Shown: positions 33,281 to 62,997 of the stretch, piece after piece
Position numbering within the stretch: position 1 is the first letter of the stretch
How the letters are laid out: each line of letters opens with the position of its first letter
From: Agelas oroides
Lineage: Eukaryota; Porifera; Demospongiae; Agelasida; Agelasidae
Length of the DNA: 64,000 nt
Direction: 5' to 3'
Assembly (NCBI GenBank): GCA_949130485.1
Contig: OX422201.1
Span: forward strand, 2,392,516-2,456,515
The notes under the pieces: generated by a model
Told to the model about the DNA's origin: nothing
Seen by the model: only the letters and a program-made list of their open reading frames with translations
The model's database searches: none
Translations under genes and position numbers: made by a program

Positions 33281-36200
33281 GTTGGTTTAATAGACAGTAG
33301 ACTACTCCTGCAGTATTTGTGAGGAATGGTTTCGATCTCTCTAGACCCAGCAGCCACTCAGTATATACAATAAGAGTCAGAGTGGCTGCCTGGTGTGCAA
33401 CTGGAGCATTCAGCACCACTTGTGCAGTATATAGAAAGGATTGTGAGAGCTAGTGGTTGTCCAAGTGGTCGTAGCTCAGTGGTCAAAGCACTGGCAACTC
33501 GTGCCTAATGTTGCAAGCCAGACCCCCTTCCGCAAAAAAGGGAAGGGTCTGGTGAACTGCGTATACAAGCTGTGTCCCGCTGCACTGTACAGTGATGCGA
33601 TCCAATCACGTTGCAGTATTTTGTCACATGACACATTACATCACTGTTTGAGTAGCAATAGCAGTCTTGAAAACGGCGAGAGAGAGCTAGGACATCTTTT
33701 CCGCTACTGCAGGAGCTGTAAAAACACTTCTGACTATGCTTTTCAGGGAGCGTGCTTTCTCTGCAACAGGTAATTCAAGAGTGCATTGTTTGAAATCTGA
33801 TTACCTCATCCAGCTAATTGCATTCCAGTGGGACATGGCTTGTACATGCAGTTCATCAGACCCTTCCCTTTTTTTTGCGGAAGTGAGTAGACGGCTTGTG
33901 AGACCAGCTTGTCCCAGGGGCCCAGGGTTTGATTTTCGGTTCCTCTTCTTCACCACCTAACAGCAAACGTGTCTTTACTCTGATAACTTCCCTGAAACTA
34001 AAGCTAAGAAGTGCTCTGAGCTTACATGTATTGCAAGTGGTCTGCAGAGTCGGGCATGTGGACTCATTCATGCCCTAGTCTGTCTATCTTACCACTACCC
34101 ACTATTTTTGATACCTACATATATACCGTATTCTACATATTATCCGCCCATGGGTGGGCCACTTAGGTGCTAGCTGAAAGAGGGGGGTGGGCGGATAATA
34201 CGTAGTTTTGGTAAACGCAATGTAGTATCCGCCCACCCAGGAAGTTCATCTACAATTATGTGATTACGTACTTAGTCTTTTGTTGATTGTAGAAAAAATG
34301 ATTGAAAAATCAAGCCGAGTACATACCGTAGATCTGGAAAATTTCGCTGTTAAAATAATTTTGCGGTTGAGACCAACCGCGAAAATTTAACACGCGAATA
34401 AAAACATTTACGCGGCGATGATCAGCGAATAAGCTTGCGTGTGCACGTCCACACTTCCCGAGGTAAATGTCCGATTGACAACTACTCCTGACAGCCACAG
34501 CGTTACAGCCAGCGATACCTGGTTCTCCCGATACCTGGTAGCAGACTAAACGCTAGGAACGCTCCAGGTGCTTGTCCTTATTGTAACTGCCAACCGTTAA
34601 AAAACGTTCGTGGATGGAACGAACCACGAAAATTTAACACCATGAAAATTTTTTATTTCCCAATCTACGGTATGATCGACAAGCATAACTGACGGCCTAA
34701 GCTGGAATGCCAAAATCGCCTATTCTCAAAGCCATCTACATGTTGTCACCTACTTGCCTGCTGTCATTGTCTTCCCGGTACAGGGAGCAGTCCCGAGTTA
34801 AAGGGTGGGCGGATTCTATATATAAAGACTTAAAAAACATTAAAAATGTAAAAAGATGTAGGGATGGCATGCCAAAAAGTATGCAAACAAGGTAGGGATA
34901 ATGCAGGAAAGCAAAGGTCAACATATTGGCAAAGCCCCATCCCTTTTTCACACTACAGCTGATGCAATGCTGCTAGATCATATTAGCCTCGTTATGAGCC
35001 GGCATGTGGGAGAAGAAAAGGGCCTGGGGACGAGGCTAGAACCATGCCATATACTTTAAAGACACTTATATCATAAATCTGCAGTCTACTCTAACTCACT
35101 GCTTAAAGTTGTTGAAGTGGTTCCGTATAACAATGCTACCAATAGGGTCATACTAGCCTTGTTCCCAGGCCACGTGGGAGAAGGAAGTGGCCTGAGAACA
35201 AGGCTACAGCCATGAACTGCCAGTAAAGGTTGTGAACATTTTAAGAAGACCCCCATGCACTGTCTAACTGTAGTGTGAAAAAGATGTAGGGATGGGGCTT
35301 TGCCAATATGTTGACCTTTGCTTTCCTGCATTATCCCTACCTTGTTTGCATACTTTTTGGCATGCCATCCCTACATCTTTTTACATTTTTAATGTTTTTT
35401 AAGTCTTGTTTCTGTACTTTTTTGATGTTAATCTCAGTTACAGTTAGACCTAAGCCAAAGAAGAATATTTCAAGTGTAACCACAACACCAGAACTTGGAA
35501 CGGCGTTGACAGTTTTAATAGTAGTGGTTACAGGCATGTAATAATATAGCCAGCTAGAACCTGCTGAAGGGCCAACCACTCTCCGTACCAAACTTTGTGA
35601 AACCAATTTCATGATTCAATTGTCAATCACATGACAACTGACCAGCTGCAGCACAGAAAACTATCATACTGACAACTGACCATCCTAGCTTTACAGTTCA
35701 CTAAAGCTGTGAGTAGGCAGCTGAATGCAGCGCCTTACCTACGTGGTGTTCATAAGCCTTGCCCAATGTCGCGGGGGGAAAAGACCGTACCAGTCATTAT
35801 GCCCGCTCGCTTGTGTACTCTCGCTTCCAGACCAATGACCGTGGTCTTTGGTCTGGGAACGAGACTTCATGTGTGCATGCGTACAAAATTAGAAAATGGC
35901 GTCCTAAGCAACGGACAGCAGCCTCAGAGTGTTGTGAATGGCTTTTGTTGACCAGGGTGAATTTGAAGCTATGAAGACGCTGAGTGGTTGGGAAGCTGAG
36001 CGCTGTGATGAGCATCCGTTTTGTGCTAAAATCAAGGTGAGTACTTGAGCCGTTTTCGAGTTATCATAATTTACAAAGTGGTCGGAACAAAGAAAGAAAG
36101 AAGAATACGAAAAATGGCACTTTTGCTATCGCACACTTTTGAGTTTAGCTGTCTTCCGCGTGGCTTTTGGCCACTTATATGAGTCTTGCTGATCACAAAG

Positions 36201-39200
36201 GCACTCAAAGAGGAGGCCTGGGCGCTTAAATAAGCTTTTTGCGTGTTTGTGGTGAAGTTATACGGCTTTTGCTTAAGTATTGCATATATTGCGCGTCGGC
36301 GCCATCCCTACATAGAGAGTCTACCGACTCTCTGATAAATACCCTTCCACATAACTTTTGGTCGAAGAAGGGGGTGGGCAGATAATACATCATGGGTGGA
36401 TAATATGTAGAATACGGTAGTGTATACACATGCTGTACATGATGGAAGGTTAGAGTATTATGAGTTGAAGAGTCATTGAAGCAAGCCCCATACTAGCGAG
36501 TTGATGTATATATATAGAGCTTGTGTAGTTCTTGATTTACAGCTGTTTTTCAGCCTTTATGCAAGCCTATTTACAGGGAACACAGTGCTTCTGTGCATGA
36601 ATCATGAACATTTGTATCTCGAGAACCACACAAATGCATAAAGACAAGACCTGCACCAATTGATAAGGATTGGTTCATTCCAGCGATATCAGTATTGTAG
36701 GCCTAATGAGTAGTTGGGGGTGTTCATTAGCCTCATTCCTAGGCTCTCCCAAACTCCTCCTCCTTAGTGGGGAAAACCTGGGACAGGACTAGGTGTCCAC
36801 AGCAAAAAAACTATGGAAATCTATCTCCAACCATTGAGGGAGCAACCCACTCATTATTTCAGCAACACCCCTCAGTATCTAAGGCAGCTACCGTCATGAA
36901 TATCAGGCAGGGTCTTGCAGCTCCACAACGGTGTTAACATTTTGCCGAGAGTTGCCTCATTGAAGGAACAAGAAGTGGCATCTGAAAATTCTATCCGATT
37001 ATCGAATGTTTCTACATGTTACGCTAATTGCACCTATTACAAGTTGGATTTGACACCCAAGCTCCATTTCTTAGTTGTCAGATATGGTGCCCTCTGTCTT
37101 TGTTTCCATGGACTATCTGCGTGGCTTCATCTGTGTGTACGAGTATTCGGTTATTGATGGTGTCCAAGCATTGGCTGCTTCCTCTATGTCTGTCTGGTGT
37201 ACATTCAACACAAACGCACACTGTGCATTGACAATAAAAGAGATTTTCACTCTGCATCCTACTGTTGTGATAGCCAGCAGAAATGGTTCAGGAAGATGGA
37301 TAGCTGTTTGTGAGGGGAAAATGGAGCGTGACTATCTATTGTACAAGAACTACCAGTTGTGTAGACAAGCCAGGCTAGTTACAGTTACAGAATGTAGAAG
37401 GCGGCAGTGATTTTCCGGCAGTATAATTTCCAAGTTGAATAGCTATGTATTTAGCAGGCATGATGGCCTTCATGACAAATTCCTCGTCTTGATGGTAGCT
37501 AGCTACCCAAGGAGAACAAACGGCTGCATGGTAAGCTCCATGACACTTTCTTTAAGCTGCTTCATATAAGGAATTGCACACCAAAGGCAGTACACAATGA
37601 CACAACCTGCTGCTAATGCTATATGGCTACAAGGTCTGAGTGCTGTGACAAACTATGAAATCAGTTTGTTTGCTCAGACTTGCCCCACAATGATGAAGTA
37701 TCTGCCTAGTAATGAAGTAAGCTTGTGAAATGTCATTCGCAGTGAATCCATCAGTTGGGAGTCTTTTGTACCTTCCTACATAGTTCAAAGTTTGATATGC
37801 TGTGGATAGTTGGGGTGAGCCTGAGCAAAGTAAGTGTGTGTATAGGGGTCATCTGTGATCCTGTCTTGCAATCAGCCCTTTGAATTTGTTGGATAGAGTG
37901 ATGGCCTACAAAGTTGCGGAGTGACATTTCCATATTTTGAGCTCTCTTGTTTAACCTGTATTTTTTTTTTTTGTAGTTAAGTAATTCTAGTATTAGTAAT
38001 AGTTGTGGAGGTGTGTCACATTATCTAGTACTAAAAGTAGTTTTAAATTGCAAATAACTAACCATAATAGGCTTGGTGCATATCTTTGCAATTAATTTAG
38101 TTCTTGTTCCAGTTATGTATAGTACTAGTTGCAGTTACAGTAACTGGCCATTCACAGTGCAAATGATGTAACATAACACCATAGGCGGTTCCAGACCCGG
38201 GCAAGCCCGGGCATTGCCCGGGTAAACTTTTGGTCACTATATTGCGCGGAAACTCGGCTGTAACATAGCGGCTCCGCTGCGCGTGTCGCCTGCCCGGGTA
38301 ACTTGGCAGCTCTGCAACCGCCACTGCATAACACACAAGTCACGTCTAAAGAACTACAGGTAGCACTTGTCTTTCTTGATAAGGACTTTTCTCTCCAGGC
38401 TTTTGTCAGAGAGCCTGCTCTCCAGATGCTACTTCTCCTGCTGTAGAGAATGTGCGCTCAACTGGTGCTCTTGAAGCTTGTACAGTGAGCAAGTCACAAG
38501 CCAGTGGAGCAATGTGGGAATAGGTTTGCTCACAAGAACTCCAACTGTATCAAGACGTTCATCAACTTGGATAGCTATGCTCAGGTACTTATCTAGCTCT
38601 TCCTGTCAAAGTGTCATAATTAAGTGGGCTTGTGGTAGGAGAACGTGCCTCTTCCTTTCGCTTCTCACTCTTGAAAAATCATTTAAAGACTCTGTGGGTT
38701 TTGCCCTTCACCTTCTCCAACATCGAAAATGCTAGGAACTACACTACCTGCAACATTCTCACTCCTCAATGCCATGTAACTCTCGTATGGTGTGGGCTTT
38801 TGTGTGCCTCAGTTGAGGAGGACCCGGTATTGTGGGTCCAGTGCTGTGGCTGCAACAAATGATGTCTCATGAAGTGAGGCAGCAGGGTGAAAATAGTGAA
38901 GAAGGTAGGAGTGGTGGGGAAGTATGGTACACGTTATAGTTCTTCCCTCAGAAAGATGGTAACAAAGATTGAAATCACTCAACACAAAAAAAGACATTTG
39001 CTACTTCAAATGCAATGAAGAGAAAGTGTGTTGGCATTTGGCAGTGTAATAGTTGCAAGAAGATTATTGCTGGTGGTGCTTGGGTACCAACTGCTGTGGC
39101 CACTGTTTGCAGTACAGTAAGAAGACTAAGAGAATTGACACAAATCTGAACTCATTTGGACCGCCAATATTTTCATTGTGATCATGCAAAAATATATATA

Positions 39201-45200: not shown

Positions 45201-48200
45201 AACTCCTTGGACTGTTCTGTGGTCTTGTATGTACTAGTGCAGAAATTTTTTCAAGCTAATATATAGATGGAGACTGTGCTACGTACTTATTGTTGTTAAA
45301 CCTGCACTTGCATGGCATTTTATGTGTGGACCAAATTTTGATGAGGGTGGTCAAAGGTGATATAGGCTTTGTCAGGCATCCCAGGGCACCAATGATACCA
45401 ACTATATTTCACAGAATAATTATGTTGAATCTGTTACAATCTGTTAAATTTTACTCCCAGATCACTGACTATAGCTGTAATGCAAAAATAAGTTTTCAAC
45501 TTAAACACGAAAAAAATCCTTCCATGGTAATCTGTGCTCAAGGTAGTTAACCCTGTGTGGCAATAGGTCATCTGTCGCAATCTTGTATGATTAATTTGTT
45601 GTCCAGTCCTCATCCAAGACCACATGATCCAGTCTTCATTGATGCATATGCTAGAGGGCAGCGAAAGACTGCTGAGGGGTGCCTGAACATGGTCTCCATG
45701 TTCAATGCAGGGGCATCACTCGATGCTTTGAATGCTACTCAGCCAATTCGTGTGAGTTGAATACATGTTTATGGAGTATGTGCATACCCTGTGTCTGTTG
45801 CATGTAAACTCAATTATATATAATATATATGTGGTGTTTCAATTTTAAACAAGTCACAAAAAAGTTTTCTGAATGAAAACAAGTGCATGTAGGGATGGAA
45901 CCCTCAAAAACCAACCAAACTAGATGGGAATGACACCACAACAATTTCACACCATCCCTACATCTTGTGCCATTTTGCCAACTATGCTTTGTGTTTGTTA
46001 GTTGTGTTCATAGGAGGGTTGTGGAAGGCAGTGGGATGGGTAGTGCTGGGTGTGGAGTGCATGTTGATGTGCATGGGGGGTGAGTTATGTTGTGGGTGGC
46101 TGTGATGTAGTTGCTATGCTGAGAATGGCAGGTATGGTCTGTCTTGAATTAGTCTTGCAAGCCCGACCCTTTCTGCGCAGCACCGATCACTTTCAGTATG
46201 CGGCACACAGAGGGAAGAAGTTTGATGTTTGGATTTACAATTTCACTTCAAAGCATTTATGACGATTCTTAGTGCCTTCCTCTGCGTGCCGATACTGAAA
46301 GCGATCTGCACTGTGGAACGGAAAGGGTCTAGCTTGTGAGACTAGTCTTGAATGCAGAAACTGTCGAGTGCATGAGCTGGGTCTGTTGGAGTAAGTTATG
46401 TTGTAAAATTTTATTGCTGCTGAACATGGCAGATATGGATTGTCTTTATGTAAAAGGCTGTGGAATGAGCAGCGCTAACTACAGCTAGTATTCATTTAGT
46501 GGGTGTGAATAGGCTAGAGAGTTTACTGGTGTGCATAGTTGGCAAAATGGCACAAGATGTAGGGATGGTGTGAAATTGTTGTGGTGTCATTCCCATCTAG
46601 TTTGGTTGGTTTTTGAGGGTTCCATCCCTACATGCACTTGTTTTCATTCAGAAAACTTTTTTGTGACTTGTTCCTGCTCTTTTTTTTTTTTGTATTGCTT
46701 TTTAGGAATGGTAAGAGAGAAGTGACATGGGAGGGTAGGCCGAGGGGAAGATGCATGGTGTGTACAGTATGATAGTAGAAAGAGCTAAGAATTGTCATAA
46801 ATTCAAACGCTTTGAAGTGAAATCGTCAATCCAAACATCAAACTTCGGGGGGGTTAGAAGTACAGTCCAAGCAAAGCCTCATAAAAACCAAGTGAAAAGC
46901 AGATGAGTTTAATAAGGCTTTGCATGCAAGCTTATAAATCCTGTGCTCATTTCACGTGGACTACTAATGGGTTCACCGAAAAACCCTCCATAGACTGTCA
47001 CCAGAGTATTGAGTCGTAAGACCCCATTACAGAACTGTTTGATGCATGGTGAGTAGCTATAGTCTAAATCGGTTTGAAACGAACGCATAGGGGTCTGTGG
47101 AGCTGAACAACCGCCAGTTCTGTGGCCACCTCTAGTGCAGAAGTTTGGAATGAAGCCATGCACTGTTGACTCGGTGCTACTAGAGTTTGAGTATACCAAG
47201 CTACCAATAGGCTGCCACTTGCTTCGTTGGAGGAATATATGAAGACTCAGGCACAACACAAAAGGAGGATGTTAAGAAGACACCAGCCAAAGTGTTACCA
47301 TCAACTCGCAGTAAACATTGTATGTGTACTATATGCATGTAAATGACTATAACAAGCAAATTTGAAATGTGAAAGTTGACAATAAAACTTGAAATTGAAT
47401 ATCAGTGGCTAGTGTTCTAAGTCATATGAAGTACTTGATGGTTAAAACACTAGCTGGCATAGTACCGTCTATACCACTTGAGCTTGGCTTTTGCAGCCTT
47501 CAAATTAGTCATACGAGCTGCTGCCCTTTTTTTGTCAGGGTTCCTCCAATAACTACTATGGGAGGATACGCGGGAAGCTGCCCTTCCTTTCTCAGGGTCC
47601 TCCCAATAGCGGGTATGGGAGGATATGCGGGAAGCTGCCCTTCCTTTCTCAGGATCCTTCCAATAACGGGTATGGGAGGATGCCCTGGAAGACGCCCTTT
47701 TCGTCTCAGGGTCCTTCCAATAACAGGCATAGGAGGACGCCCGGGAAGATGCCCTGTGTTTCTCCGGGTCCTTCCAGTACTTATTACGGGACGCTTGCCT
47801 TTTTTTCCCCTTTGTTTCGCAGGTAGTTCTGCTTGTCCTGCGCTCGTTTCTTGCGGACATTATGCATATTGCGTTCGATGTAAAGTGCAGCACAACCACG
47901 TCAACTGATCCACGAAATCAGATTTGCAAACTGCAACGCTCAATTCTCACCTTCTCTATACTACGAAGTACTGAACCACGTGCTCAGTTGAACCCTGGTG
48001 ACGTAATTATGAGTAATATTTAATTCGAGCAAAATGGCGTGTAGCAGCTAGCGTAAGTGTGAGATTACCTGAGAATCGCCGACAAGTTTGAGTTCTTTCT
48101 TTTAGACCGATAAGTGGCAGGTGCAATACCTAGTGATTTATCCTGTTGTTTTGCGTTTGAATCGTTGTAAAAGCTCCAGCCGTTATCGTGCTATCGCGGT

Positions 48201-51200
48201 GAAAGGCAGAAGAAGAAGAAGAAAGTCAGAAGATAGACGATTTGTCCGTTTTGGCGACTTGCCGGTCTGGTGCTTAGCGATACTTTCCAGCAAACTTAAC
48301 AGTCTTTTTGCTCATGAAAACACTCGATAATGCCTGATATGACTCATACAGGCCTTTGACTAATCTAACGAAGACATTTCGAGCGTGTTATTTGTGCACT
48401 TTTAATGTGGCGGCCATTTTTTTTCGGGGTCATCCCTACATATGGCGTACTACCGTACGCCATGATACACATAGATCCAGCATTCCACATTATCCCAGCA
48501 ATCTTGCATTAATTCCCTCATCTCCTTTAATTCTATGTTTACGTAGTCCCAACATACAAGTCACCTCTACAACAAACATTTACACTGAAGGCAAAGCTTG
48601 CATGTATTTTTTGTGTAAGTTTTCAAACAGAGAGTTGCAATGACTACAAGTATCAAAGTGTCAAGCAGAAATGTCTTAGACCTCGCAGCTTCCACAAGTG
48701 TGATGTGTATACCTTTTCTTCTCTGCTACTGGACAAAGTATGTGACTGTGCTGTTGTTTCCACAGGTGTTTATGCGAATGGCTGCCAACATCTATAGCAG
48801 CAGCCACATTATTGCTGGCTATGATATTGAGAGAGTGTACGATGAGAAAACAGGGCAGTGGTAGGTGGAGAACTAACACCTCTAGCTATCAGTCACTTGT
48901 CGCAGAAACCTGGAAGATTGCATCACATGTTAGTAAAGCAGTGTGATGTCACGACTCCTATATGATCAAGGAGCCTATTTTCACTAGCCACTGAGCAAGT
49001 ATCAATGTATTCAAATTAGAAACAGACAGCTTGACTACTGAATAGTAGCCATGAAACAGCAGGTAGACATTTGTAAAGTGCTGTGTTCCTTGTGCTAAGC
49101 CATCATCTGTGGCAGATTCGAAACTTGTAGCCCAGAGCCCCTTTGAAAGTAACCTTGGATCTAGTTTTGATAGATATTGTAGATAATAGATATATATGCC
49201 CACAGTAGTGTGATCTCTGCTGGCTGTTGTTCCAATAGCATACAGGAGTGGAGGGCTTCCTAGACTTTTCTAAGACCTTCTCTGACAATTGAAGGCAACA
49301 CTGGACAAGAGTGATTGCTTGAGCAGCTGTGCCTTGTGCTGTTGAGCTGCTGTATCATGTGATGCAAACTTTCAGGTCTTACCTCACTGTCTTTCTGTGT
49401 TGCATTACTGTGAGGCTTGGTTGAATGATTCTCTACTATCCCCTGTCATTGTCTTTCTTCCATCTGTACATGCTCCGTTTCCTCCTTCTTTCCTCTACTC
49501 CCTCCTCCCACCCCCCTCCCCTCCATTCTCCTCCTCCATTTCACCTTCCTCTTCTCACAGGAGCTCTGTGGCACTTACATCTGCCCTCAGTCTGCAGCTG
49601 CTCCTGTGCTCACTGTGCAGTGATGTCACACTCGCACGTAGGAATGCCTCCTATGCCTCCCTGTTGAGCATTGAACTCAGCTACAATGCAAAAACGGTAT
49701 AGTCACCAACTCTAAATTGTCGCCAATTTGCATGATGTCATCACCAAATACCCATTTTCAGCTTTCAAACATAGACTTGGGTACTTCATTTATGAGTTGT
49801 TGCGGCATCCAGCATCAATTATAACCCAATCAATATTGCAATGTGATTGGGTGGCACGGTTCTTGCTGCAACTGAACGATGTAGGAACTTGCAGGTACCG
49901 TATTTCAAGGTTCAAACAGAGGTTCATGTAAATTGCCTCTGGTGTACATGGGGATCATATACAAGAACGGTGAATTGAAAGAAGCACTTGAGTGTTGAAA
50001 GTTAAGTGGTACATCACTGAAAGGAAACAAGGACCTCATAAGGTGAAGAGATTCAAAAGTGAGTTCTGATTGAGGGTAACCCTACCTGCCACATGCATGT
50101 AGGACAGTGGGAGATCTCAGGTAGAATTGTGGTGGAACAGTGCAGGCAGCATTGATCTTGTAATGAGTAGAGGCCTTTTGTCTTGGGCTGCCTACCAAAT
50201 ACAAAGCCAGTGATGTTTGAGGCCGCCTTGAAAGATTGGTGCATATTGAGCAGGAACCTAGAGCATGGGTTTGTTGTCTAGAGTCAGGAAAGCCAGTTTA
50301 GCCCTTTCAAACATAGTCTTGAGAAGGAAATAATAAAATGACCATGTACAGTGATGATGTGATATTAAAAATTATACACCTCTTTTTACCACATTGAACA
50401 GTTCACTAGGGAACCTGTGCACCCACCAGTACTTGTGCATGAATGGTGTTAGCATAAATGTTCACAAAGGAATAGTGTGGGTTGTTATGTTCCGTGCAAT
50501 CTAGGAATTTTATATACATTTCTAGGCCCCTTCCTTTACTTTCCAAGCCATCAGTTGCCTAGGGATCTTTTTGCCATAGCCATGCACGGCTACATCTTTG
50601 TGCAATGTGATACTACCTTGCTCAACGCTGTGGGATTAGAGTTATGAGTGATCACCTGGTTTAGTACTTTGAAGCAGGTGAACTACTCACTTTTGCTGCG
50701 TAGAAGATGGATAGAAAGAGCAAGCAAGCCGAGCACTCACTCCACAAGAGGGTCTTCTGCAGTTGTAGAATGCAAGAGGATACGAAGCAGAAGATGGCTC
50801 AGTGCATTTAATGCGAGGAGTGGCTCTACCAAAACTGTAAAAATGTCTTTGAACTACCGTATAGCCAGAAAATTCGGCAGGGAATTAATTTGGCAGTTTG
50901 ATTCAACAAAGACACCACCAAATTAATATCGCCAATATTTTAATTTGGTAAGTGTGTTCTACTACTTTCTCACGTTGTCTAGCGAGGTTTTCCTCATTGT
51001 CAGAGAAAGAGTTTAAAGAAGCAAACACAAGCTTGAAAATGCTCAATGGAGAACAATACCTCAAACAAACTGGGCATCGGAAACATCAGAATCAGCCAAT
51101 GGTCTTTAGTAGGCAGAGTAAGTGGTACTGCATCATGAAAATTTCTGGATTGGTGATGAGTGAAGCTCAGTGAACTGGAGCTTTGTTCAATAGGGTGCCA

Positions 51201-54200: not shown

Positions 54201-57200
54201 GCCAAGAATACAACACGACTATTAAACAGCACTGACACTTGTTACATCATGACTATGCTTACGTCGCAATTACTACACTTCGCTGTGCTCAGCAATTAGC
54301 TCAGCTAGCTTTGTGATGGCTAATATGATACTTTTGTTTGCCGCGTACCATTGAGTTGGACTAGCTGGGAAAGATGCTCTCAAGTATTAGCCTTAGTTCC
54401 AAGCTTCCTATTAATGTAAGGTTGGTGAGTTTTCTTACATATTTGATGTCATTATCTCGCGTGTCTAGCTGGTGAACAGCAATTGTCATACACATAAAGC
54501 ATTGAACGTACAGTTGGTTGAACAATAATTATGTAAAATGCTATTTCAGACATTTTTTGCTATTTGCCAATTACTAAATGTTCACATTAGAAAACTTACC
54601 AAACCTTCCCCCGCTTATCATGCTGCAAGTGATCAGAAGCTAGTTTGGGGCTGAGAATGAGGCTACTCAGGTAATGAAGAGCACTGAAGTGCTTAACCCT
54701 CGGCACGTAGTATTAACGCAGAGTCACAGGGCACAGCTAAGTAGGCGAAGGAAATTAGATAGCTAGCTGAGACTACACAAAGTCGTACAGGATAACAGTG
54801 TCCCAAGTTGTCCTAGTATCCCTTTATCTTGCCCCAACAAACCCCTCCCTAATGTAGTGAGCATGTGTAGTGAGTAGGGAATCTGTGGGACATTCCCCGG
54901 TAATCCTGGATATGTACCATGCCTGTACATACATATTGTGCTATGCCTGTTACATACATATTGTAGCAGTATTGACCATATGCTTCAAACCGAACGAGGA
55001 CCGATTTCGCCGAGAACGTTTCGTTCAAGAGTTATGCTGTGATTCGTTTGCCACGGCGAGTGCTAGTCGGCCATATTCTAGTCTGAGAACAAGTTCACAC
55101 GCCCTGGTCTAGTCTGGGATCCCGGGAGTACTGTGGCGCTGCGCTGTACTCCCACAGCATGGCATCTTTCTCCAATGGAGGAAGTGTCTTTGATCAAACC
55201 CTAACAAAGTTCTGATAGCACATACTGAACTTTTGTAATAAGCTGATCGAAAAATTTTTAAGAAAAATTTATGTCTTTGTCTCCTTCAGGTTGGACGGGT
55301 ATTGTCAGACATTATGGCTAAGATCTCCACGGAGACAATCAGCCTAGACATGCTCTCTCTGGTACGACGATCACGGGATGCAATTGAGAGAAAGCGAAAA
55401 ATTCTTGCCACTCCACCTCAAGTATGTCCTGTAAATTAGATTTAATCCTTGACCACTGAACTTACACAGACATGGCTTTGCATGAAGTAGCCAAGTGAAA
55501 ACACACACACTAGAACAAATACCACCACCCCTACCCCTCTAAGAGTTGCTAAAGTTCACAGCCTGTATATGTTAAGGTTACAGTACTCCCACCATACTGG
55601 AATCTTGCAGCGTAATGGGTGCTTGCAATCATGGGGTGCTTATTTTTGTGATGTGCTAATAAATGCATAGAACAAGATACCATAATGCTACAATGTTTTG
55701 CGTGAACTTTACTTTTGCAAATTTTGCGAGTGCTGACGGCATCGCAAAGAAAAGATCGCAATAATTAAACTTGTGGGGGAGGCTCTTGGTAGGTGTGGTG
55801 AACGGACACATTGACGTCGAACCAATGAACGTTAGCTGGCTGTTCCAGGAGAAGCAAGGGTAGTGGATGTTTCCAGCCTTGTGTAGTATAACAACAGTGA
55901 AGGTGGCAGAATAAGTTCCAATGTTCTTCAGAAGCTGGGGTTTTTTTCAAGATGAGTAATGGTATTAGCCACTATTTCAGTCTGACTATGGGACACAATT
56001 GTATATTGATATTCATGACTATTATTGCGAGTGCTTGTAAAAATTGAGGGAGGGGCTAAGATAGGTACTGCTCATTCACAAAGATAAGATCGCAAATTAG
56101 CCTAAAAATGGCAAAATCGCAAAGGTTTCTCACACGCAAAACATAATAGCATTATGGCAGTAGTATTAGCTGTGATGTGTTTCAAGTCATTAGTTTCTCT
56201 CCTTGCTAATCCTTGTCCCGCATTTGTAGCAGTCCAAGGACCAGAAGTATTCTCACCATGGTGTAAACGTTACATCTGTTTGGATAGTAATGGTTATTAA
56301 TAAACAGCTTAAGCTTTATCCAAGACCTTGCATGTGCAGGGTTTCATACTGAGGACTCTGAGGAGGTGGGGGGGAGGGGGGGGGCACTAGGATTCCCCCC
56401 ACCCCCTCCCCCAGGAATGTGAAAATCATAATGTCATAGTTGCCTCAACAGCTACAATAGGATATACGTACAACACAATAACAAAATTCAGCATAATTAT
56501 TGGCTTAATATATTAAAGTCACAAAAAAAAGTTTTCTGAACAAAAGCAAATGCATGTAGGGATGGAACCCTCAAAACCAGCCAAACTAGATGGAAATGAC
56601 ACCATAATACTTTCACAACATCCCTATATCTTGTGCCATTTTGCCAACTATGCACACTACATGTTTGTTATGCACTATCAATGCTATGCCCCACTACCCC
56701 ACCGTTGTCACAATAGGGGATGGGATGGGTAATTGACACGGGAAACTGTCAACTGCCCCACCCATAGAGCAATCATACTGGTCAATTCTCCCATACTGAC
56801 CCCATGCACCACCAGGAAATATGCCAGGGATTTGACATCTTGAATCAGATTACACAAAGCACATACCATAGTCCCCCCAAAATATATTAGTAGTTTCTTT
56901 GACATGCAGAAGTTTGGCATCCCTTGTCAAGTTCACGATCGCTCACACATTAGTACCGCCCCTTCCTGTCCTTCCTGAGTAGTGATGTAAGTGGAAAGGT
57001 GTGGCCTAGACTTGTTACTATGCAATAGGCAGGAATTTACCCCGCAGTCTTATTTGGCTTTGTAACTTTGTGCGCTAGGCGCTCGTTTGTATTGTGTGCA
57101 TATATATATGCTTCCCGCATCCAGAGGGTTAATGAGGTGGAGCAAGCGATACAGGAACAGGTGAGAATGCATGTAAGTCCCCTGAGGCAAGCAAGATAGG

Positions 57201-60200
57201 AGTAGATGAAAGTGCACCCGAGTGCCCTGAAGCAAGTGAGAGTGTTTGTGAGTCAAGTGGAAGACTGAGGGAGTGTAACTGTACATCAAATGGCCTGTTT
57301 GGGTTACTGACTACCCAAGGAGACCTCACTGAAAATGCAACTCGCCATCTGACTCACTGGCTGAGGACAACCCAGAGAGCTAATAGATGATACTTGAGGA
57401 GAAAGGGAACATGTGATTGAATCCTCTTTGGGAGTTGTGGAGAGAAGAAAGGTTCAGGAGAAATTGGCCCAGGTGAGACTCCAAACATAAATTCCAAAGA
57501 AGGGGTTGAAGACCTGCTACATGAAGATGAAGTGCTACATAGGATATGGAGTTGTTCAGGACTCTTGTTCACTAGTAGAGAGGCTCAACATGTCAGTATT
57601 AGGATCAGAAGATTTGTCTTCCTTTCGTACCAAGCTGACTGCTGTTGTTTTCACTTGAGCAATTTCAACTCTGTTTCCAGTTCAAATCTCTTCTGTTTAA
57701 GCATGCTAATCTCTACAGTGATGTTGTCACATAACTAGTATTGGTGAGAGTTACTTCCTTGCACCATACGTGACAGCAAGCACATACCAAGATGTCATGC
57801 TGTGGATGTAGTGGAATACCATTACTTTATGGCACTGCAGTTTTTGCCTGGCTCTCTTTGGCGCTCAGAGTACTCATCTTTATAACAGTCAAACCACTCC
57901 ATCTCACATGTTTGATGTCCCTGGGGTTGAAAACCCACTCTCTAGCACGTGCAGGACTGCTGTACTTTCCGACAATTCTTGCTGCAGTTCCTTTGCAGCA
58001 TTCATCATATATAATAATTGACATGGATATTATAATAAACAACGATCTTACCTTGTGCTGAATCACCACCTTCAGGATGTGATTGTTTGGGTTGCGACGA
58101 CACCCATAAACTCCCCAGCCCACTCCTCATCCTTGATATCTGCAGAAAGATATCTGCGTGCTTCCCCTTCTGATCATCAAGTGCTTTAAAAATCTCCTTC
58201 AACAGCAGATCTGGGTTGCTTTCTGACTTAGATGCCGACAGGAAGGTCACAGGACGACAGCGCTCTTGAATCGAACCAACACTCGCTTCTCCTTTGCCAT
58301 CTGTATTCCACGTGTAGTTTACAAACGCTACACACGTCCGCATACTATAATATTCCAAAGAATGTCAATTACCCCATTCATGGGGTACGCTCCGGGGTCA
58401 AATCCCCACCGCAACTCACCCTTTCCCCGAGGGAGGGGTAATGGGGCATAACATTGATAGGTGTATTATGTGGAAAGCAGTGGAGTGGGTAGTGCTGGGT
58501 GTGTAGCACATGTTGATATGCATGTTGACGTGCATGGAGAGCGAGTTGTGTTGTGGGTGGCTGCAACTTAATTGCTATTAAGCAGACATGGCAGATATCC
58601 AAGTAAAATTTTTCCACAGAATAAAGAATGCTGTTCTCGGTTCTCTTGAGCATGCTGCTTTTCCAGAGTACCATCTGGGAGTGACTCGAGCTCAATCTTC
58701 AATTTCTCACATGTGCCACAAGTATCAGACTTTGGGTAACCAAATGAAAGATTGAATTCTGTATTAAACACTTGGGAATAGTAGTAGTAGGATTCTGAAT
58801 GCCTGCTTCATATTTCTGAAGATAAAGACGATGCATTTCAGCAACCGAGAGGGTAGGAGACAAGAATCGACGACGTTTATTCTTGTTTCTCGAGTAGTGG
58901 GACTTCATTGCTGGGAAAGACTTAATATGATCTCTCACCTGTTTCTTTACCTCAGCTGATATCTTATGAGGTCTATTGGTGTGCTTTCCTCTCATATCTT
59001 TGGGAGAGACAATGGACGAAGATGATGCTTTAGCAATTCGCTGCACACGACTGAGTGATACTCCATGGAGAGACGCAAATGCCTTTTTACAAACAATTTC
59101 TCGCTTACCGTCAACACGCACCTACAGATAAGAGTGAGAGAGAAAGAGAGAGAGAGGCAAAGTGGATGGTGAGATAGAAATGAGCTAGATCAACAATGTA
59201 CAACCATAATACCACTAGTGTTTACTTACAGATGTAGCTTGCTCGCCTCTGGCTTCTGGTCTGTGATTGCTGCCTTGGTCATCTCCTTTTCACCTGCAAT
59301 GAAGTAATGAGTCCAAATAGGTGGGCATCTTGCAGCTCTTTATTTGAAAGAGAATTGTACGCTTCTAAAATCGCATCTCTTTCTTCCTGATTGAAAAGCT
59401 CAAAAAACATCTTTTGTGACAGCTGCAAGGATCTCCAGTGGACCAGGCTGGAACTTTCTTGCCTGTAGATGGTGACACGTACTCTTGACCTCTTGCTCTT
59501 TTGGCTTTGGCGACAGAGTGCTTCCAGGTTTCTGGTCTACGAGGCCTCTTTCTGGGTCGTTGTGGTCTTCTGGGCGTCTCACTACCTGAACTTCCATTAG
59601 TGGAATGTCCATTGCCAGCAAGGTTCACTGTCACCGACACCGACGTATGGATGGAAAGACCACTTGGTTAGCCTCGTTCCCAGGCTCTCCCCTTGCCCCG
59701 ACGAAATAGAAAAGGAGGGGGAGAGCCTGGGACCGATTCGCACGTGATATCATGGCACGACGACTTTGCACTAACCATTAAATAACCTGAAACGTCACTT
59801 ACATGAAGACTGCGAAGTAGCCGTGAAGTACTCTCAGCTCAAGATTTTGTTACACTACAACTCGTTTATTGTTGTGTAGCTATGTTGGAGCTTTAAAATG
59901 TGGTTGTGATTCTGTTTTGTACGCCAGAGTGTAGTGCTACCCAACTCAAGTCTTTGTTCATAGCCAAAGTCTTACCTACGTACCCGGTAATTCTCCGCCA
60001 TCGCTGCTGTTTGAGCCGTGCCGAGGTCTCACCGACGCAGTCACCACTTACTTGTTTCAGTAGTAATATGTAGCTGTTTGAGTCAGCCAATCACGTGGCT
60101 GCATAATTTTGTCACGACTTTTGTAATTATTGCTGTGACGTCTACGTGCCGCGATATCACGTGCGAATCGGTCCCAGGCTCTCCCCCTCCTTTTTTATTT

Positions 60201-62997
60201 TTCGTCGGGGCGAGGGGAGAGCCTGGGAACGAGGCTACCACTTGGTCCAGCTTGAATGTTACACTCAGACGTTGTTGCCATATTCAAATGACTCAGTTGC
60301 AAAGCTCTGGCAAGCCGTCTAAGGAACCTGCCTCGACAGTGAATGACGGATTCAAACGATACAACAGCCAGCTTGTTCAAGTCAACTACTCGAGGAGACA
60401 GCTAACCTGCGTAATTGGGACTTAACCACGTCTGCAGAGTACGTGGACTTAAACCTACAACATTAACGATGCTTACCAGCTCGTCTTATATGACTACATA
60501 GAGAGATATTTCACCAGGATAATTTATATGGCGAAACAAACAAATATAGTCCCCACTTTCGATTTTTTTTTGATATTTGGACTTATGTTGTTCTTCCACC
60601 AGTAAGCTCAAATTTATTTTGTAGTTATGCCTAGTTGGCAAAATGGCACAAGATGTTATGTTGTGAAAGTATTGTGGTGTCATTCCCATCTTGTTTGCCT
60701 GGTTTTTGAGGGTTCCATCCCTACATGCACTTGTTTTGTCCAAAAAAAACTCTTGTAGGGATTTTTTGTGACTTGTTTCTGTTGTTTTGTTTGTTTGTTT
60801 GTTTGTTTTTTGTTGTTGTTGTTGTTGTTCTTTTATATATCATGGTAAGCTATCTAGACATGTGCTTAGTGAAGCTTCTGGGGACGTACTTGCTATGAAT
60901 AATATGAGTAAGATTATGATCTAACAAAATGGTGTATAGCAGCAAACAAAAGCGTGGAGGTGCCTGATAATCGCCGGCTTGTTCGAGTTCTTTTGTTTAG
61001 AACGATATGTGGTGAGTGCAATGCCCAGTGATTTATGCCTTTCTTTCATGTTTAAATCATTGTAATGGCTTCTGCAGTTACCTTGCTATCATGGTGGAAG
61101 GTAGGCAGAAGAAAGAAAGAAATCAGAAGATGGACAATTTGCCCATTTTAGCGACTTGCTGGTCTGGTACTTTAGCGATACTTTCCAGCAAAGTTAACAG
61201 TCCTGTTGCTCATGAAAGCACTCAATAATGACTGATATGGCTCATAGAGGCCTTTGACTAATCTAACGCAGACATTTCGAGCGTGTCATTTGTGCACTTT
61301 AGTTAATTTGGCCGCCATTTCCTTTCAGGGTCATCCCTACACATGGCGTACTACCGTATGCCATGATAACTGAATCCTTGATGATTCTTGTCCTTAAATA
61401 TGTCAAGAATTTCATTAAAATCTACAAAATCCTAGCGGGTGCACTGATGCGCACATGCACCCTTTGCCCACATCTACACTCACCCCACCATCCCCCCACC
61501 CTTCCCCCCCCCCCCCCCCCAGGAAAAATCCTGTATGAAACCCTGATGCACTTTGTGACTTTGTCCATAAAGCTCTTAAATTCATGATTCTTGTCCTTGG
61601 AATGTCGGTTAGAGCACTGCAATCGTCGCTGCCACATGGCTATGTCCTCCCTGCTCTGGGTAGCGTGTGCCTTATAATTTGGAGTGACTATTTTTATACG
61701 AGTGCTTATAAGCATGATGTAGTAGTTATAATAGGTACCTATTATCCGTTATTCCTGGATTACTATAATTTTGTGTTTCATTGACTGCTGCTTGCTCTCT
61801 GTCTAGGTTAAACAGCGGAATGATGCATTGAAATACCATGTGGGCATGATAATGAAGCACAGACGGTACGGAACACTCTTTGTGCTACCTTTGCTTTTCA
61901 TTTACAGGTTGTATGTACATGTATATGTATGCTCAGAATTTGTATTTATGTTACCATGGCCCATGGCTTGCAGTGCAATTTGGGATTAATTGCATGAGTA
62001 GGGTTTGTAATTTCATGAGGCGAAACCAAGTGAAATTACTAACCCTACTAGTATAATTAATCCCAAATTGCACTGCAAGCCATGGTATCACATCAGTCAT
62101 ACAGGTTCTCTTAGACCGTATTCTTCAGCTAAACATTATACTTTTGTACACAGTGACACTAACTTTCCGCTGCATGAGACAATGAACTGAATCAAGCTTC
62201 TACCGTTACAAGATGGCACTGAACTTCCTAGCGAGTGCAAGAGAAGAGCGAACCTGGTATAGATCACCTCTGGGCGGAGCAATTAGTTAGCATAGAGTAG
62301 AAGGCATAACAGTTGACTGTTCGACCAACTAAGCATGCGAGTGAACCTGAATGATGCTCTGCTCAATCTTGTTCACCACGAACACAAGGCAGTTGGCTAG
62401 GAGAATAGATACAACCTTCTGCCACCTACCAGCAATCCTCTGCCAGACTCCAGTGACCCGAAAGATTCGAACGCGTAGTAATGACCATTTTATCATAGCT
62501 TCGAAATCAAAGGAGTAGTGATTTTTTCGTTGACAATTCACTGGAGAGCAGCTTCTGTCGTTACTTTCTTTCGTGTTTTGATTCGTTTACAACGCCATTG
62601 CTGTGTTTATCCAGGTGCCTGCGGTACTGTCTATTGACCAATCAGATGCATATTTCACTTTTTGCACAGCTAAGCCATGCCAAAAGTGAAATCCTCCCCT
62701 ACACAGTAGTAGACATGTCTGTATCCAGCTGAGGCAAGGTGTTCTAAAACAAAGATAGGATCATTCAGTATTTGGTGTTTTCATGTGCTGCTGGGTACTC
62801 ATCCTGCTACAACAGAGCTGTCACACTCCACCCATTCAGGTATGACTATCGTTGTGTGATCTATGGCTGGGACAATCGATGTGAGATGAGTGATGCTTGG
62901 ATCCTGCAGATGGGCGTAGACAGCCTGCCTCATGGCCGCAACCAGCCATTCTACAATGTGCTTGTGGAGGATGGAACCAACAGATATGCTTCTGAAG
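33111..62997 (+). CDS. FBXO21: F-box only protein 21, 12 exons; 3' end outside the window
   Basis: Substrate receptor of an SCF (SKP1-CUL1) ubiquitin ligase. Exons: 33111-33280, 40193-40441, 41800-41924, 42831-43144, 43978-44064, 45034-45077, 45607-45751, 48766-48860, 49561-49696, 55290-55421, 61807-61865 and 62840-62997. All have GT/AG sites and consistent phases, giving 571 residues (human protein about 620-630). Order of domains: F-box in exon 1 ([20 protein letters not shown]); a helical linker; the SirB1/transglutaminase-like region ([60 protein letters not shown]); and at the end the YccV-like hemimethylated-DNA-binding-type domain ([40 protein letters not shown]). The last exon ends in phase 1 at SE and the remaining ~60 residues must lie beyond 64000. 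The start MAGQEWLL is chosen because it opens just before the F-box; Met at 33090 or 33021 is possible. Introns are swollen by transposons. Confidence 0.94.
33466..33960 (+). ncRNA. tRNA-like sequence (tRNA relic or SINE head) split by a MITE
   Basis: GGTCGTAGCTCAGTGGTCAA + AGCACTGGCAACTCGTGCC (33468-33505) has the layout of a tRNA D-arm with an A-box (TAGCTCAGTGGT). After the element at 33506-33906 comes GGGTTTGATTTTCGGTTCCT, a weak B-box/T-arm at the right relative spacing. The two halves would join into one tRNA-like unit. It is decayed, and a functional tRNA is unlikely. Confidence 0.45.
33506..33906. mobile_element. ~400-bp MITE, AAGCCAGACC family, second copy
   Basis: Ends (TTGCAAGCCAGACCCCCTTC and ..GCGGAAGTGAGTAGACGGCT) are eroded. 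The body is colinear with 20282-20675, including AAGGGTCTGGTGAACTGCGT and GCAATAGCAGTCTTGAAAAC. Flanks ACTCGTGCC and GCTTGTCCC agree only partly. It interrupts a tRNA-like sequence in FBXO21 intron 1. Confidence 0.8.
34324..34672. mobile_element. MITE with TACCGTAGAT..ATCTACGGTA ends
   Basis: Left TACCGTAGATCTGGAAAATT, right TTTCCCAATCTACGGTA, with CGCGAAAATTTAACACGCGA inside and CACGAAAATTTAACACC near the other end. Confidence 0.7.
34984..35038. mobile_element. 55-bp MITE, TAGCCTCGTT family
   Basis: TAGCCTCGTTATGAGCC at the left, GGCCTGGGGACGAGGCTA at the right. The flanks give no clean 9-bp duplication. Confidence 0.6.
35154..35206. mobile_element. 53-bp MITE, TAGCCTTGTTCCCAGGC family
   Basis: TAGCCTTGTTCCCAGGCCAC pairs with GTGG + CCTGAGAACAAGGCTA. 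The core GTGGGAGAAG is shared with the element at 34984. Confidence 0.65.
36729..36791. mobile_element. Eroded MITE, TAGCCTCATTCC variant
   Basis: TTAGCCTCATTCCTAGGCTC at one side, AACCTGGGACAGGACTAGG at the other, 60 bp apart. Confidence 0.45.
36792..38182. other. FBXO21 intron 1, no gene supported
   Basis: A 111-codon open frame at 37075-37410 (plus) has no recognisable motif or splice partner, so I treat it as chance or an unrecognised relic. Confidence 0.35.
38183..38325. mobile_element. GC-rich palindromic repeat with CCCGGGCAAGCCCGGGCA core
   Basis: AGGCGGTTCCAGACCCGGGC at the left and CTGCAACCGCC at the right are partly complementary, and CCCGGGCA recurs on both sides. It is far more GC-rich than its surroundings, so an inserted MITE is likely. 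Confidence 0.5.
38380..39751 (-). pseudogene. Decayed BED-finger hAT (ZBED-like) transposase
   Basis: On the minus strand, 39675-39436 encodes a BED-type finger ([20 protein letters not shown], with the Cys upstream and His-x-x-x-x-His at its end). It runs with a frameshift into [17 protein letters not shown] and then [14 protein letters not shown], typical of the middle of ZBED/hAT proteins. Farther on, [13 protein letters not shown] and a C-terminal helical piece (about 38600-38380) follow in the expected order with stops between. There are multiple frame breaks, so no product is expected. It lies in FBXO21 intron 1. Confidence 0.65.
40193..40441 (+). CDS. FBXO21: FBXO21 exon 2
   Basis: Begins by completing Arg, then [19 protein letters not shown], with the charged segment [20 protein letters not shown] that corresponds to the acidic linker before the SirB1-like part. 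Cys content is high (eight in 83 residues). Confidence 0.85.
40943..41069. repeat. 18-bp tandem repeat (GACTTTAGTCGCCATG)
   Basis: Seven nearly perfect copies of CACCATGGACTTTAGTCG, with CACC/CGCC alternation. In FBXO21 intron 2. Confidence 0.9.
41305..41692. mobile_element. 388-bp MITE, TAGCCTCGTTCC family, perfect 9-bp duplication
   Basis: Inverted ends of about 95 bp (CCCAGCTTTCCGTCG, CCTGGTATCTTTTCTCACGT and complements). The exact 9-mer GGCTAAGTT is at 41296-41304 and 41693-41701. In FBXO21 intron 2, 107 bp upstream of exon 3. Confidence 0.92.
42148..42688. mobile_element. MITE, GGGATAA/TTATCCC TACCGTAAAAT family, second copy
   Basis: Right end GGGTGCTTATCCCGATTTTA + CAGTA. Interior (GGCAATCGATTGATTG, TTTTATCAAGAGGCCTTGCC) colinear with 12391-12973 reversed. 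The left terminus is truncated near GCCTATTTTCAAAATTAGC. In FBXO21 intron 3. Confidence 0.75.
42831..45751 (+). CDS. FBXO21: FBXO21 exons 4-7 (SirB1/transglutaminase-like region)
   Basis: Exons 42831-43144, 43978-44064, 45034-45077 and 45607-45751. They encode [20 protein letters not shown], a variable acidic loop ([15 protein letters not shown]), [17 protein letters not shown], then the best-conserved blocks [18 protein letters not shown] and [11 protein letters not shown] and [10 protein letters not shown]. In the family this fold resembles transglutaminase/SirB1 proteins; catalytic activity is not established. Confidence 0.9.
43313..43601. mobile_element. MITE with CAGGRTTTCATAC..GTATGAAACCCTG ends
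   Basis: Left CAGGATTTCATACAAGTGGG, right AAACTGTATGAAACCCTG, with C/G-rich subterminal runs. The middle (GATGTCATAATTGCCTCAAC, CTTAAATATGTGCAGAATTT) is found as two separated halves at 56337-56515 and 61367-61545. In FBXO21 intron 4. Confidence 0.75.
44224..44535. repeat. GTGCAATATC hairpin and TATATATCAGGRTGC tandem repeat
   Basis: CCGTGCAATATC and its complement around ACAC form a tight hairpin at 44234-44262; GTTATTGCACG recurs nearby in both orientations. At 44466-44535 four to five copies of a ~16-19 bp unit (TCAGGGTGCTATATA) follow. Intronic. Confidence 0.55.
44543..44960. mobile_element. Truncated MITE, TACTGTAAAATCGAGATATT end (third copy of the TACCGTAAAAT family)
   Basis: Left end TACTGTAAAATCGAGATATT, interior colinear with 42148-42688 for about 400 bp (AGCTTGCTTACAATCAGATA), right terminus missing. 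It lies 73 bp before FBXO21 exon 6. Confidence 0.75.
46150..46344. mobile_element. 195-bp MITE, TAGTCTTGCAAGCCCGACCC ends, perfect 9-bp duplication
   Basis: Inverted ends TAGTCTTGCAAGCCCGACCC and ..GGTCTAGCTTGTGAGACTA. The exact 9-mer GTCTTGAAT is at 46141-46149 and 46345-46353. Inner arms CGATCACTTTCAGTATGCGG and its near-complement. Nested between the arms of copy A. Confidence 0.9.
46783..46850. repeat. Inverted relative of the 46208-46272 segment
   Basis: AAGAATTGTCATAAATTCAA + ACGCTTTGAAGTGAAATCGT and CAATCCAAACATCAAACTTC are the near-complement of the core of the MITE at 46150-46344. Confidence 0.6.
47450..47899 (-). pseudogene. Lys/Arg/Ala/Ser tandem-repeat protein, N-terminal part of a rolling-circle transposon protein (candidate)
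   Basis: 149 codons with about five 23-residue repeats of the type [19 protein letters not shown], ending [16 protein letters not shown] and a stop. Repeats of this type (KDPEKKRAASRASY) are, from memory, the N-terminal region of long uncharacterised proteins in sponge genomes that also contain Helitron-associated domains. That link is recall, not a search. The basic repeat suggests nucleic-acid binding. The frame stops where I would expect the protein to continue, and no Rep or helicase motif is visible in 46672-47449, so it is probably a truncated remnant. The likeliest start is the Met 14 codons in (MSARNERR). Confidence 0.5.
48766..49696 (+). CDS. FBXO21: FBXO21 exons 8-9
   Basis: Exons 48766-48860 and 49561-49696, joined through a split Trp codon. 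Helical, poorly conserved linker ([31 protein letters not shown]) corresponding to the tetratricopeptide-like middle of FBXO21. The acceptor of exon 9 follows an exceptionally long pyrimidine tract (about 49440-49559). Confidence 0.82.
49697..52082. other. FBXO21 intron 9, left part; no gene supported
   Basis: Contains a half MITE end (TAGCCTTGCTCCCAGGC near 51848), a TACCGTATAGCCAGAAAATT element start near 50866, and a segment (51763-51812) duplicated at 52083. Confidence 0.35.
52125..52229. mobile_element. 105-bp near-perfect palindromic MITE, TAGCCTCGTTCCCAGGC family
   Basis: Arms of about 48 bp (CCAGTTTTTGATCGCTTGCA and exact complement) around a tiny loop. GGTCTATC is directly repeated at 52117-52124 and 52230-52237. 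A related uninterrupted segment at 51796-51810 reads GTCTATCACCATGA. Confidence 0.9.
52230..53249. other. FBXO21 intron 9; CpG-rich segment 52460-52900
   Basis: The segment is richer in CpG than the intron around it and has an internal imperfect repeat (ACCAGAGAGGCTACCCATC / ACCAAAGAGGCTATACCCATC). Open frames exist on both strands but none is recognisable; possibly a decayed transposon. Confidence 0.35.
53250..53735. mobile_element. Decayed relative of the 28477-29037 MITE
   Basis: TGGTTCCCAGCACTGAGGGG followed by ACACCTGGCATCTACTGTTT at the left. TAGTAGACACCAGGTGCTCC at the right, with GCGGTTAGTGTAACG inside. These match the order of words in the 28477 element and its inverted ends. Confidence 0.5.
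53736..55289. other. FBXO21 intron 9, right part; no gene supported
   Basis: A highly eroded inverted-repeat element may span 54391-54664 (TTAGCCTTAGTTCCAAGC .. GCTGAGAATGAGGCTA). Nothing else recognised. Confidence 0.35.
55290..55421 (+). CDS. FBXO21: FBXO21 exon 10
   Basis: 44 codons, phase 0 at both ends: [20 protein letters not shown] and a basic helix ([14 protein letters not shown]), matching the helical segment just before the YccV-like domain. Confidence 0.82.
56337..56515. mobile_element. Left half of a CAGGGTTTCATAC MITE
   Basis: CAGGGTTTCATACTGAGGAC, G-rich and C-rich runs, then ATGTCATAGTTGCCTCAACA, as in 43313-43601. Its right half continues at 61367, after the 4.85-kb insertion. 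Confidence 0.7.
57790..58360 (-). other. Possible exon-like open segments inside copy B
   Basis: An open minus-strand stretch begins [20 protein letters not shown] near 58341 and ends at a good donor (CACAAG before GTAAGAT, 58054-58060). Further open sequence lies at 58000-57827. I do not recognise a family. It may be captured exons or part of the same cargo gene. Confidence 0.3.
58568..60281 (-). pseudogene. Truncated multi-exon cargo gene of a widespread uncharacterised (probably transposon-derived) family, split by a MITE
   Basis: Minus strand. The start Met at 60281 ([15 protein letters not shown]) is followed after 12 codons by the MITE at 59669-60237. The frame resumes at 59659 and runs to [20 protein letters not shown] and PCSCHKRC near 59410. 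A T6 tract there is one base short for the expected continuation ([20 protein letters not shown]), so a frameshift. An intron with GTAAGT donor (about 59231) and TTATCTGTAG acceptor (59122) leads to [20 protein letters not shown]. Next come [24 protein letters not shown] and [10 protein letters not shown], a second frameshift near 58800, [20 protein letters not shown] and truncation near 58600. I recall proteins with this motif order in many animals without known function. The copy is dead. Confidence 0.6.
59669..60237. mobile_element. 569-bp MITE, TAGCCTCGTTCCCAGGC family, perfect 9-bp duplication
   Basis: Inverted ends of about 90 bp, nearly identical (CCCCGACGAAA, GGAGGGGGAGAGCCTGGGAC, CGATTCGCACGTGATATC and complements). 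The exact 9-mer CCACTTGGT is at 59660-59668 and 60238-60246. It interrupts the first coding exon of the cargo gene. Confidence 0.93.
60780..60835. repeat. (GTTT)n and (GTT)n microsatellite
   Basis: Several GTTT units followed by GTTGTTGTTGTTGTTGTT, right after the right arm of copy B. Confidence 0.9.
61367..61545. mobile_element. Right half of a CAGGGTTTCATAC MITE
   Basis: ACTGAATCC..TTCTTGTCCTTAAATATGT, then CATTAAAATCTACAAAATCC, a C15+ run and CTGTATGAAACCCTG, matching the right half of 43313-43601. Confidence 0.7.
61807..62997 (+). CDS. FBXO21: FBXO21 exons 11-12 (YccV-like domain)
   Basis: Exons 61807-61865 and 62840-62997, joined through a split Arg codon. Encodes the start and core of the hemimethylated-DNA-binding-type (YccV/HspQ) domain: [40 protein letters not shown], then [20 protein letters not shown]. 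This is the most conserved part of the protein. It ends in phase 1 before GTTTGTAC, and the terminal exon(s) are not in the remaining 1 kb. Confidence 0.93.
61961..62085. mobile_element. 125-bp palindromic MITE with CCATGGCTTGCAGTGC ends
   Basis: CCATGGCTTGCAGTGCAATT + TGGGATTAATT and its exact complement at the right give a 31-bp perfect terminal stem, with AGTAGGGTT..GTAATTTCA and complement inside. In FBXO21 intron 11. Confidence 0.8.

Follow-up and report, generated by a model that had tools for sequence, protein, structure and literature searches.

Helitron2-like elements with an inverted second 3' terminus and a spacer found in both orientations

Three elements of one plan in a 64-kb window

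The window, a 64-kb stretch of DNA within a 259-Mb genome assembly of 141 contigs, holds three elements (W1, W2 and W3) that lie on the minus strand and share one plan. A sequence-only reading of this DNA had already proposed three copies of common design, and its positions agree with ours to within 2 bp, but it had read them in the reverse orientation: the hairpin with the TACC loop is the 5' end and the arms form the 3' end, because the element begins with TC at the hairpin, the Rep-Hel genes of related copies read in this direction, and a short hairpin lies close to the other end. In the corrected orientation, an element starts with TC and an 8- or 9-bp hairpin with loop GGTA, followed by a 12-mer, whereas its 3' end consists of the inverted 12-mer, a hairpin of 5–6 bp located 12–14 nt from the terminus, and a final CTTG or CTT. 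The double arm consists of the 3' terminus and a second, inverted copy of it of about 145 bp. The parts of the three elements are as follows.

34825..36335, minus strand: W1, whole non-autonomous element; subfamily 1; runs from 36335 (5') to 34825 (3'); target between A and T in the flanks
36302..36335, minus strand: W1 5' end; TC, hairpin AGAGAGTC-GGTA-GACTCTCT, then 12-mer ATGTAGGGATGG
35268..35408, plus strand: W1 inner arm; second copy of the 3' terminus, inverted
34959..35267, minus strand: W1 spacer, separating the arms; opposite in orientation to that of L023, L031 and L033
34825..34958, minus strand: W1 outer arm; true 3' terminus, carrying the 12-mer and, 12 nt before its end, a 5-bp hairpin
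45850..48465, minus strand: W2, whole non-autonomous element; subfamily 2
48430..48465, minus strand: W2 5' end; TC, hairpin ATGGCGTAC-GGTA-GTACGCCAT, 12-mer with one change
47453..47860, minus strand: W2 open stretch of 136 aa with YWKDPE repeats; resembles the N-terminal region of the Rep-Hel protein of subfamily 2
46533..46670, plus strand: W2 inner arm
45988..46532, minus strand: W2 spacer, 545 bp
45850..45987, minus strand: W2 outer arm, the 3' terminus; identical to the W2 inner arm
56516..61366, minus strand: W3, whole element; subfamily 2, more diverged; spacer of about 4 kb
61331..61366, minus strand: W3 5' end; its hairpin includes one pair that reads A-C here and G-T on the opposite strand
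60629..60775, plus strand: W3 inner arm; 87% identity to the outer arm, one 12-mer lost
56654..60628, minus strand: W3 spacer; ORF fragments on the element strand, e.g. 58702–59121
56516..56653, minus strand: W3 outer arm, the 3' terminus

The 12-mer ATGTAGGGATGG matches the window 19 times with at most two mismatches, compared with an expected mean of 4.98, and none of 100 shuffles contained as many. The 136-aa open stretch of W2 is 66% identical, across its residues 20–135, to the frame of the subfamily-2 relative described below (L041). A Pfam scan of five ORFs from the W3 spacer returned no family above its cut-off; the element-strand ORF fragments that this spacer holds at window positions 58571–59667 are potential exons of a captured gene. 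A repeat with a short hairpin, TAGCCTCGTTCCCAGGC or a similar sequence, recurs at 35154–35206, 36725–36790, 59669–59736 and 60168–60237, both inside the spacers of W1 and W3 and outside them; it may be a small repeat in its own right. Distant from the three elements, a subfamily-2 arm fragment (85% over 62 bp) lies at 6587–6648.

Copies, autonomous relatives and classification

Searching the genome with the hairpin pattern, as the sequence-only reading had suggested, yielded 1955 exact matches to CATCCCTACAT-N8-12-TACC against 3 for the reversed control. Two subfamilies are distinguished by their 5' stems, AGAGAGTC in subfamily 1 and ATGGCGTAC in subfamily 2. For subfamily 1, we surveyed 20 of the first 21 exact AGAGAGTC matches on contig C1, each with 8.5 kb upstream; the match left out belongs to a second element present in one of these loci (L030). 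The arm partner that the same reading had postulated for the hairpin accompanies it in other copies: read by eye, 13 of the 20 have both arms together with the 5' end, counting L027, in which the second half of the hairpin has no match. One copy has the inner arm only (L024), two have lost internal sequence by deletion but retain the outer arm (L029 and L037), and four have no full arm (L020, L025, L026 and L034). Two of the latter, L025 and L026, each consist of a 5' end without arms in its vicinity; they share one flank and may represent a duplicated segment.

The flanks of these copies define the insertion site. An A precedes TC in all 26 matched 5' ends (at most four mismatches; L027 gave no match), and a T precedes that A in 22 of them, with the common flank of L025 and L026 possibly reflecting one event. 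At the other end, a T directly follows the terminus in 14 of 14 compiled loci. When the flanks of the L035 copy were joined, all 40 scored matches (of 261 candidates) continued through the junction, and in the three places read, the empty site was an uninterrupted A-T with no target duplication. The L035 insertion, the one compared with empty sites, is thus precise, between A and T, and without duplication; a target between two Ts, as first read from the flanks, is ruled out by this empty site.

These observations also bear on whether each unit is really two unrelated pieces, a foldback or MITE with long terminal inverted repeats (TIRs) beside a separate hairpin repeat. Although the arms alone resemble a TIR element of about 600 bp, the whole unit lies inside one precise insertion at L035, which refutes this reading there, both arms accompany the 5' end in the 13 surveyed copies, and the plan is common to two subfamilies, so we regard two pieces as scarcely credible.

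Rolling-circle proteins are encoded by relatives of both subfamilies. The Helitron_like_N profile matched 86 places in the genome, and we examined the surroundings of two. At C1:23066800-23081000 (L039 and L040), a 2390-aa frame is flanked by a hairpin and an arm pair, both of subfamily 1, and at C16:5514000-5529300 (L041 and L042), a 2289-aa frame lies behind a subfamily-2 hairpin. The latter place looks chimeric because a second subfamily-2 5' end (hairpin at L042:4467) and then an arm pair follow downstream of the frame, so that two 5' ends seemingly share one 3' end. Both relatives have a Helitron Rep match and an open frame, and Pfam matches across four long ORF pieces comprise DUF6570, PIF1 (E 9.7e-24 and 1.3e-21 in the two relatives) and OTU, the subfamily-1 OTU match falling just below the cut-off; a PHD match is found in the subfamily-1 pieces only. 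The subfamily-2 helicase matches that of Helraiser (7lcc, E 3.1e-30). The frames also contain HYH and YVSGY, which we take to be Rep motifs (HUH and two tyrosines). The search for a Rep/Pif1 helicase that the sequence-only reading had called for thus recovered Rep, PIF1 and OTU in relatives of both subfamilies, and, as judged from these frames and termini, each subfamily has a relative that could be autonomous and has ends of this type. No AP endonuclease was detected in the four long ORF pieces or in the 9 of 39 downstream ORFs (at least 70 aa) that were scanned.

W1–W3 are almost certainly non-autonomous members of two related Helitron2-type rolling-circle families. Rep and a PIF1-type helicase are joined in one protein and insertion without duplication is precise at L035, as in the Helitron superfamily; the 5' terminal hairpin, the asymmetric inverted words at both ends and the 3' hairpin past the 3' word are those of Helitron2. 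The sequence-only reading had proposed Helentron/Helitron2-type elements, of which the rolling-circle Helitron2 part holds, given the Rep, PIF1 and OTU relatives and the precise L035 insertion. Helentron in the strict sense finds no support: the L035 target lies between A and T instead of TT, and the ORFs scanned contain no endonuclease. A canonical Helitron1 is rejected, as the 3' end is CTTG or CTT instead of CTRR and a 5' hairpin is present, and so is a TIR DNA transposon or MITE, given that the arms are at one end only and that L035 has no duplication.

Comparison with the available text of published descriptions refines this placement. The portions of the Helitron2 paper that we drew on (Bao and Jurka 2013, PMC3627910) describe a hairpin at the 5' terminus, short inverted words close to either end, a 3' hairpin downstream of the 3' word, a Rep-Hel protein and, in some families, insertion without duplication, all as here. 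In the present elements, however, the 12-mer comes after the 5' hairpin, whereas in Helitron2 the word forms the hairpin, and there are an extra inverted 3' terminus resembling the outer one, a spacer occurring both ways and a target between A and T. Helentrons and HINE/DINE-1 elements, in the sections consulted of Thomas et al. (2014, PMC4067079), share the subterminal inverted words, the terminal stem-loop, the many deletion derivatives of an autonomous partner and, in some, an OTU protease, but differ in the AP endonuclease, which our scanned ORFs lack, and in the TT target; those sections mention no double arm. The Fusarium oxysporum elements FoHeli1/2, as described in parts of PMC5148889, start with TCAG, have a hairpin at the 5' tip and a 3' word 38–51 bp from the end, and composites with extra termini have been proposed for them; in contrast to our elements, the extra termini there are 5' ends, and those parts mention neither a long inverted 3' arm nor an inverted spacer. 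Canonical Helitrons, from the same excerpts (PMC5148889, PMC4067079), resemble the present elements in the 5' TC, the A-T insertion and a hairpin about 11 bp from the 3' end, and differ in the CTRR terminus, where ours is CTTG or CTT, and in that our elements have a 5' hairpin and inverted words.

Outside rolling-circle elements, Foldback and Galileo-type elements carry long inverted repeats around a variable spacer, placed at both outer ends and associated with target duplications, whereas the arms here are at one end only. In the open-access literature searched (PubMed Central, including PMC5148889, PMC4067079, PMC7492417 and PMC3627910), we found no element described as having two 3' termini, one inverted and kept similar to the other, around a spacer that flips, and the earlier suggestion that the double arm is undescribed holds to that extent.

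The stems of the hairpins had been read as covarying around a fixed loop. This stands between subfamilies, where the sequence differs and pairing is kept. Within subfamilies, no covariation was seen at the outermost pair of the 5' stem, the position at which we sought it: among 17 matches with a first stem base other than A, pairing was restored in none, with 0 Watson-Crick pairs, 11 G-T pairs and 6 mismatches. In the 3' hairpin, W2 (GTTTTC/GAAAAC) and L042 (GTTTGC/GCAAAC) differ by one compensated pair. Compensatory hairpin changes were reported earlier for Helitron2, in the part of Bao and Jurka (2013, PMC3627910) available to us.

Arm likeness and spacer orientation

Within a copy, the two arms resemble each other closely: they are exact over 120 and 16 nt in W1 and over 140 nt in W2, and 87% identical in W3. 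We compared the 16 arm pairs of the subfamily-1 loci examined, including W1 and L040. After edge trimming, 26 of 2155 columns mismatched within copies (1.2%) against a mean of 4.65% between copies, and 0 of 100,000 random re-pairings gave a mismatch as low; trimming favors a homogenization reading because the edges were chosen by within-copy identity. Without trimming, a comparison that took in some non-arm edge in L022 and W1, the values were 1.9% and 5.2%, and 0 of 20,000 re-pairings were as low. Non-consensus bases common to both arms of a copy numbered 39 in the 16 pairs, with 5.7 expected, and the partner arm was strictly the nearest in 9 of 16 copies, or in 12 of 16 when ties are counted. 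For subfamily 2, 34 of 20,000 re-pairings of nine arm pairs were as low as observed; six of these loci (L043–L048) were chosen for likeness to W2 and lean toward recent copies because they were picked from its best matches, for which reason they stand outside the main test.

The arms of the more diverged W3 differ at 22 of 135 columns, and its end branch is long (0.14) in a seven-row tree in which one other row was flagged as too long. Because the arms of this diverged copy are only 87% identical, homogenization in place does not appear to be steady.

The spacers vary in both length and orientation. Across the compared copies, their length ranges from 7 bp (L027) to 3975 bp. Comparing 15 subfamily-1 spacers both ways, with L027 left out and L022 contributing only 63 bp, we found two orientation classes of 8 and 7 copies, with 100 of 105 pairs consistent. 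The W1 and L031 spacers are identical at 291 of 298 positions with one of them inverted, and those of L028 and L035 at 314 of 334; by this comparison, W1 is a flipped copy. On a weakly resolved tree of 14 tails, in which 8 of 11 inner branches are open, at least four orientation changes are needed.

We gauged the frequency of flips in a strand test of two spacer words over the first 9.9 Mb of C1, where 100 hairpins were listed, using 17 of 281 matches to word A and 18 of 278 matches to word B. Word A gave 11 matches in the standard orientation and 0 flipped, with the 6 of 17 that had no hairpin within 4.5 kb left out, and word B gave 8 standard and 2 flipped, with 8 of 18 left out on the same ground. 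The distance to the hairpin is 1418 and 1447 bp for the two flipped word-B matches, as expected after an inversion, and 1077–1161 bp (5 of 8) or 1543–2164 bp (3 of 8) for the standard ones. No flips were found among seven subfamily-2 copies chosen for likeness to W2. Thus, both spacer orientations are common across the family and recent flips are few; a flip at every transposition is not supported by the strand test or the seven subfamily-2 copies.

Inverted repeats are prone to misassembly, and identical arms and flipped spacers could in principle be an assembly artefact. We consider this very improbable: the arms are about 145 bp long and mostly 0.3–1 kb apart, short distances for an assembly of this contiguity, and copy-specific bases are common to both arms of a copy.

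Possible roles and origin of the arm pair

After an A, an element runs from TC through the 5' hairpin, the 12-mer (a putative Rep-binding site) and the body to the inner inverted 3' terminus, the spacer and the outer 3' terminus, ending with CTTG or CTT before a T; the body is the Rep-Hel gene in the autonomous form and remnants or other sequence in the rest. In the model that we propose, once the strand is displaced in single-stranded form, its two 3' termini would pair into a long stem ending at the 3' cleavage site, leaving the spacer as the free loop of the folded strand. Mismatches in this stem would be repaired, so that new copies would begin with near-identical arms, and an occasional exchange between the arms would invert the loop. 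On balance, we lean toward the two parts of this model that the compared copies suggest, namely that the arm pair folds on a single strand and that arm homogenization is tied to transposition.

The main rival is passive chromosomal conversion, under which these would be ordinary Helitron2 families, the inverted arm a leftover with no role in transposition, and host gene conversion and crossing over in the chromosome would homogenize the arms and flip the spacer. Close inverted repeats are liable to convert and invert, flips were infrequent in the strand test, and the long stem may be unnecessary because each arm already includes a short 3' hairpin such as Helitrons usually have. The imperfect arms of W3 argue against it, and so does the conservation of the layout: both arms are found in both subfamilies and near both Rep-Hel frames, although BLAST with the arms of each subfamily found only its own kind, with no cross-match. 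Weighing these points, we see the passive reading as a serious possibility but a somewhat improbable one.

A further observation concerns two copies in which the inner arm is wholly or partly missing: their own junctions were matched in full by themselves only, among 40 scored matches of 1080 and of 1475 candidates. Unique junctions in such deletion copies fit a need for the inner arm, two cases being too few to show it. A stronger form of the single-strand fold, in which the 3' terminus would be rebuilt at each transposition by copying one arm from the other across the folded strand, in a manner similar to the renewal of parvovirus end hairpins, seems unlikely to us.

How the arm pair arose is a separate matter, compatible with any of these readings. 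An inverted element inserted near the 3' end of another may have lost its 5' part, and the resulting chimera may have multiplied; self-insertion composites have been proposed for multi-terminus elements in Fusarium, in the portion of PMC5148889 referred to above. The junction of the inner arm resembles a normal 3' end followed by T, and two 5' ends stand in a row at L041/L042. Self-insertion addresses the origin only and leaves the within-copy identity and the repeated flips unexplained; as an account of that origin, we judge it evenly balanced between right and wrong.

If the 3' terminus were indeed rebuilt by such copying between the arms, the inner arm would serve as a reserve template preserving the 3' end, the loop would be able to take up and flip cargo, and the age of an insertion could be read from the arm pair as it is from retrotransposon LTRs. 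More generally, the arm pairs might date insertions. The genome offers almost 2000 5' ends that belong to one family group, and in many of these copies the 3' end is duplicated. Such natural variation could be used to examine the requirements of a Helitron 3' end.

Helitron proteins of what appears by eye to be another family are encoded at nine other loci (L009–L016 and L018), some near 5.0 Mb on C10 and some near 4.1 Mb on C4, with different N-terminal repeats seen in six of the nine.
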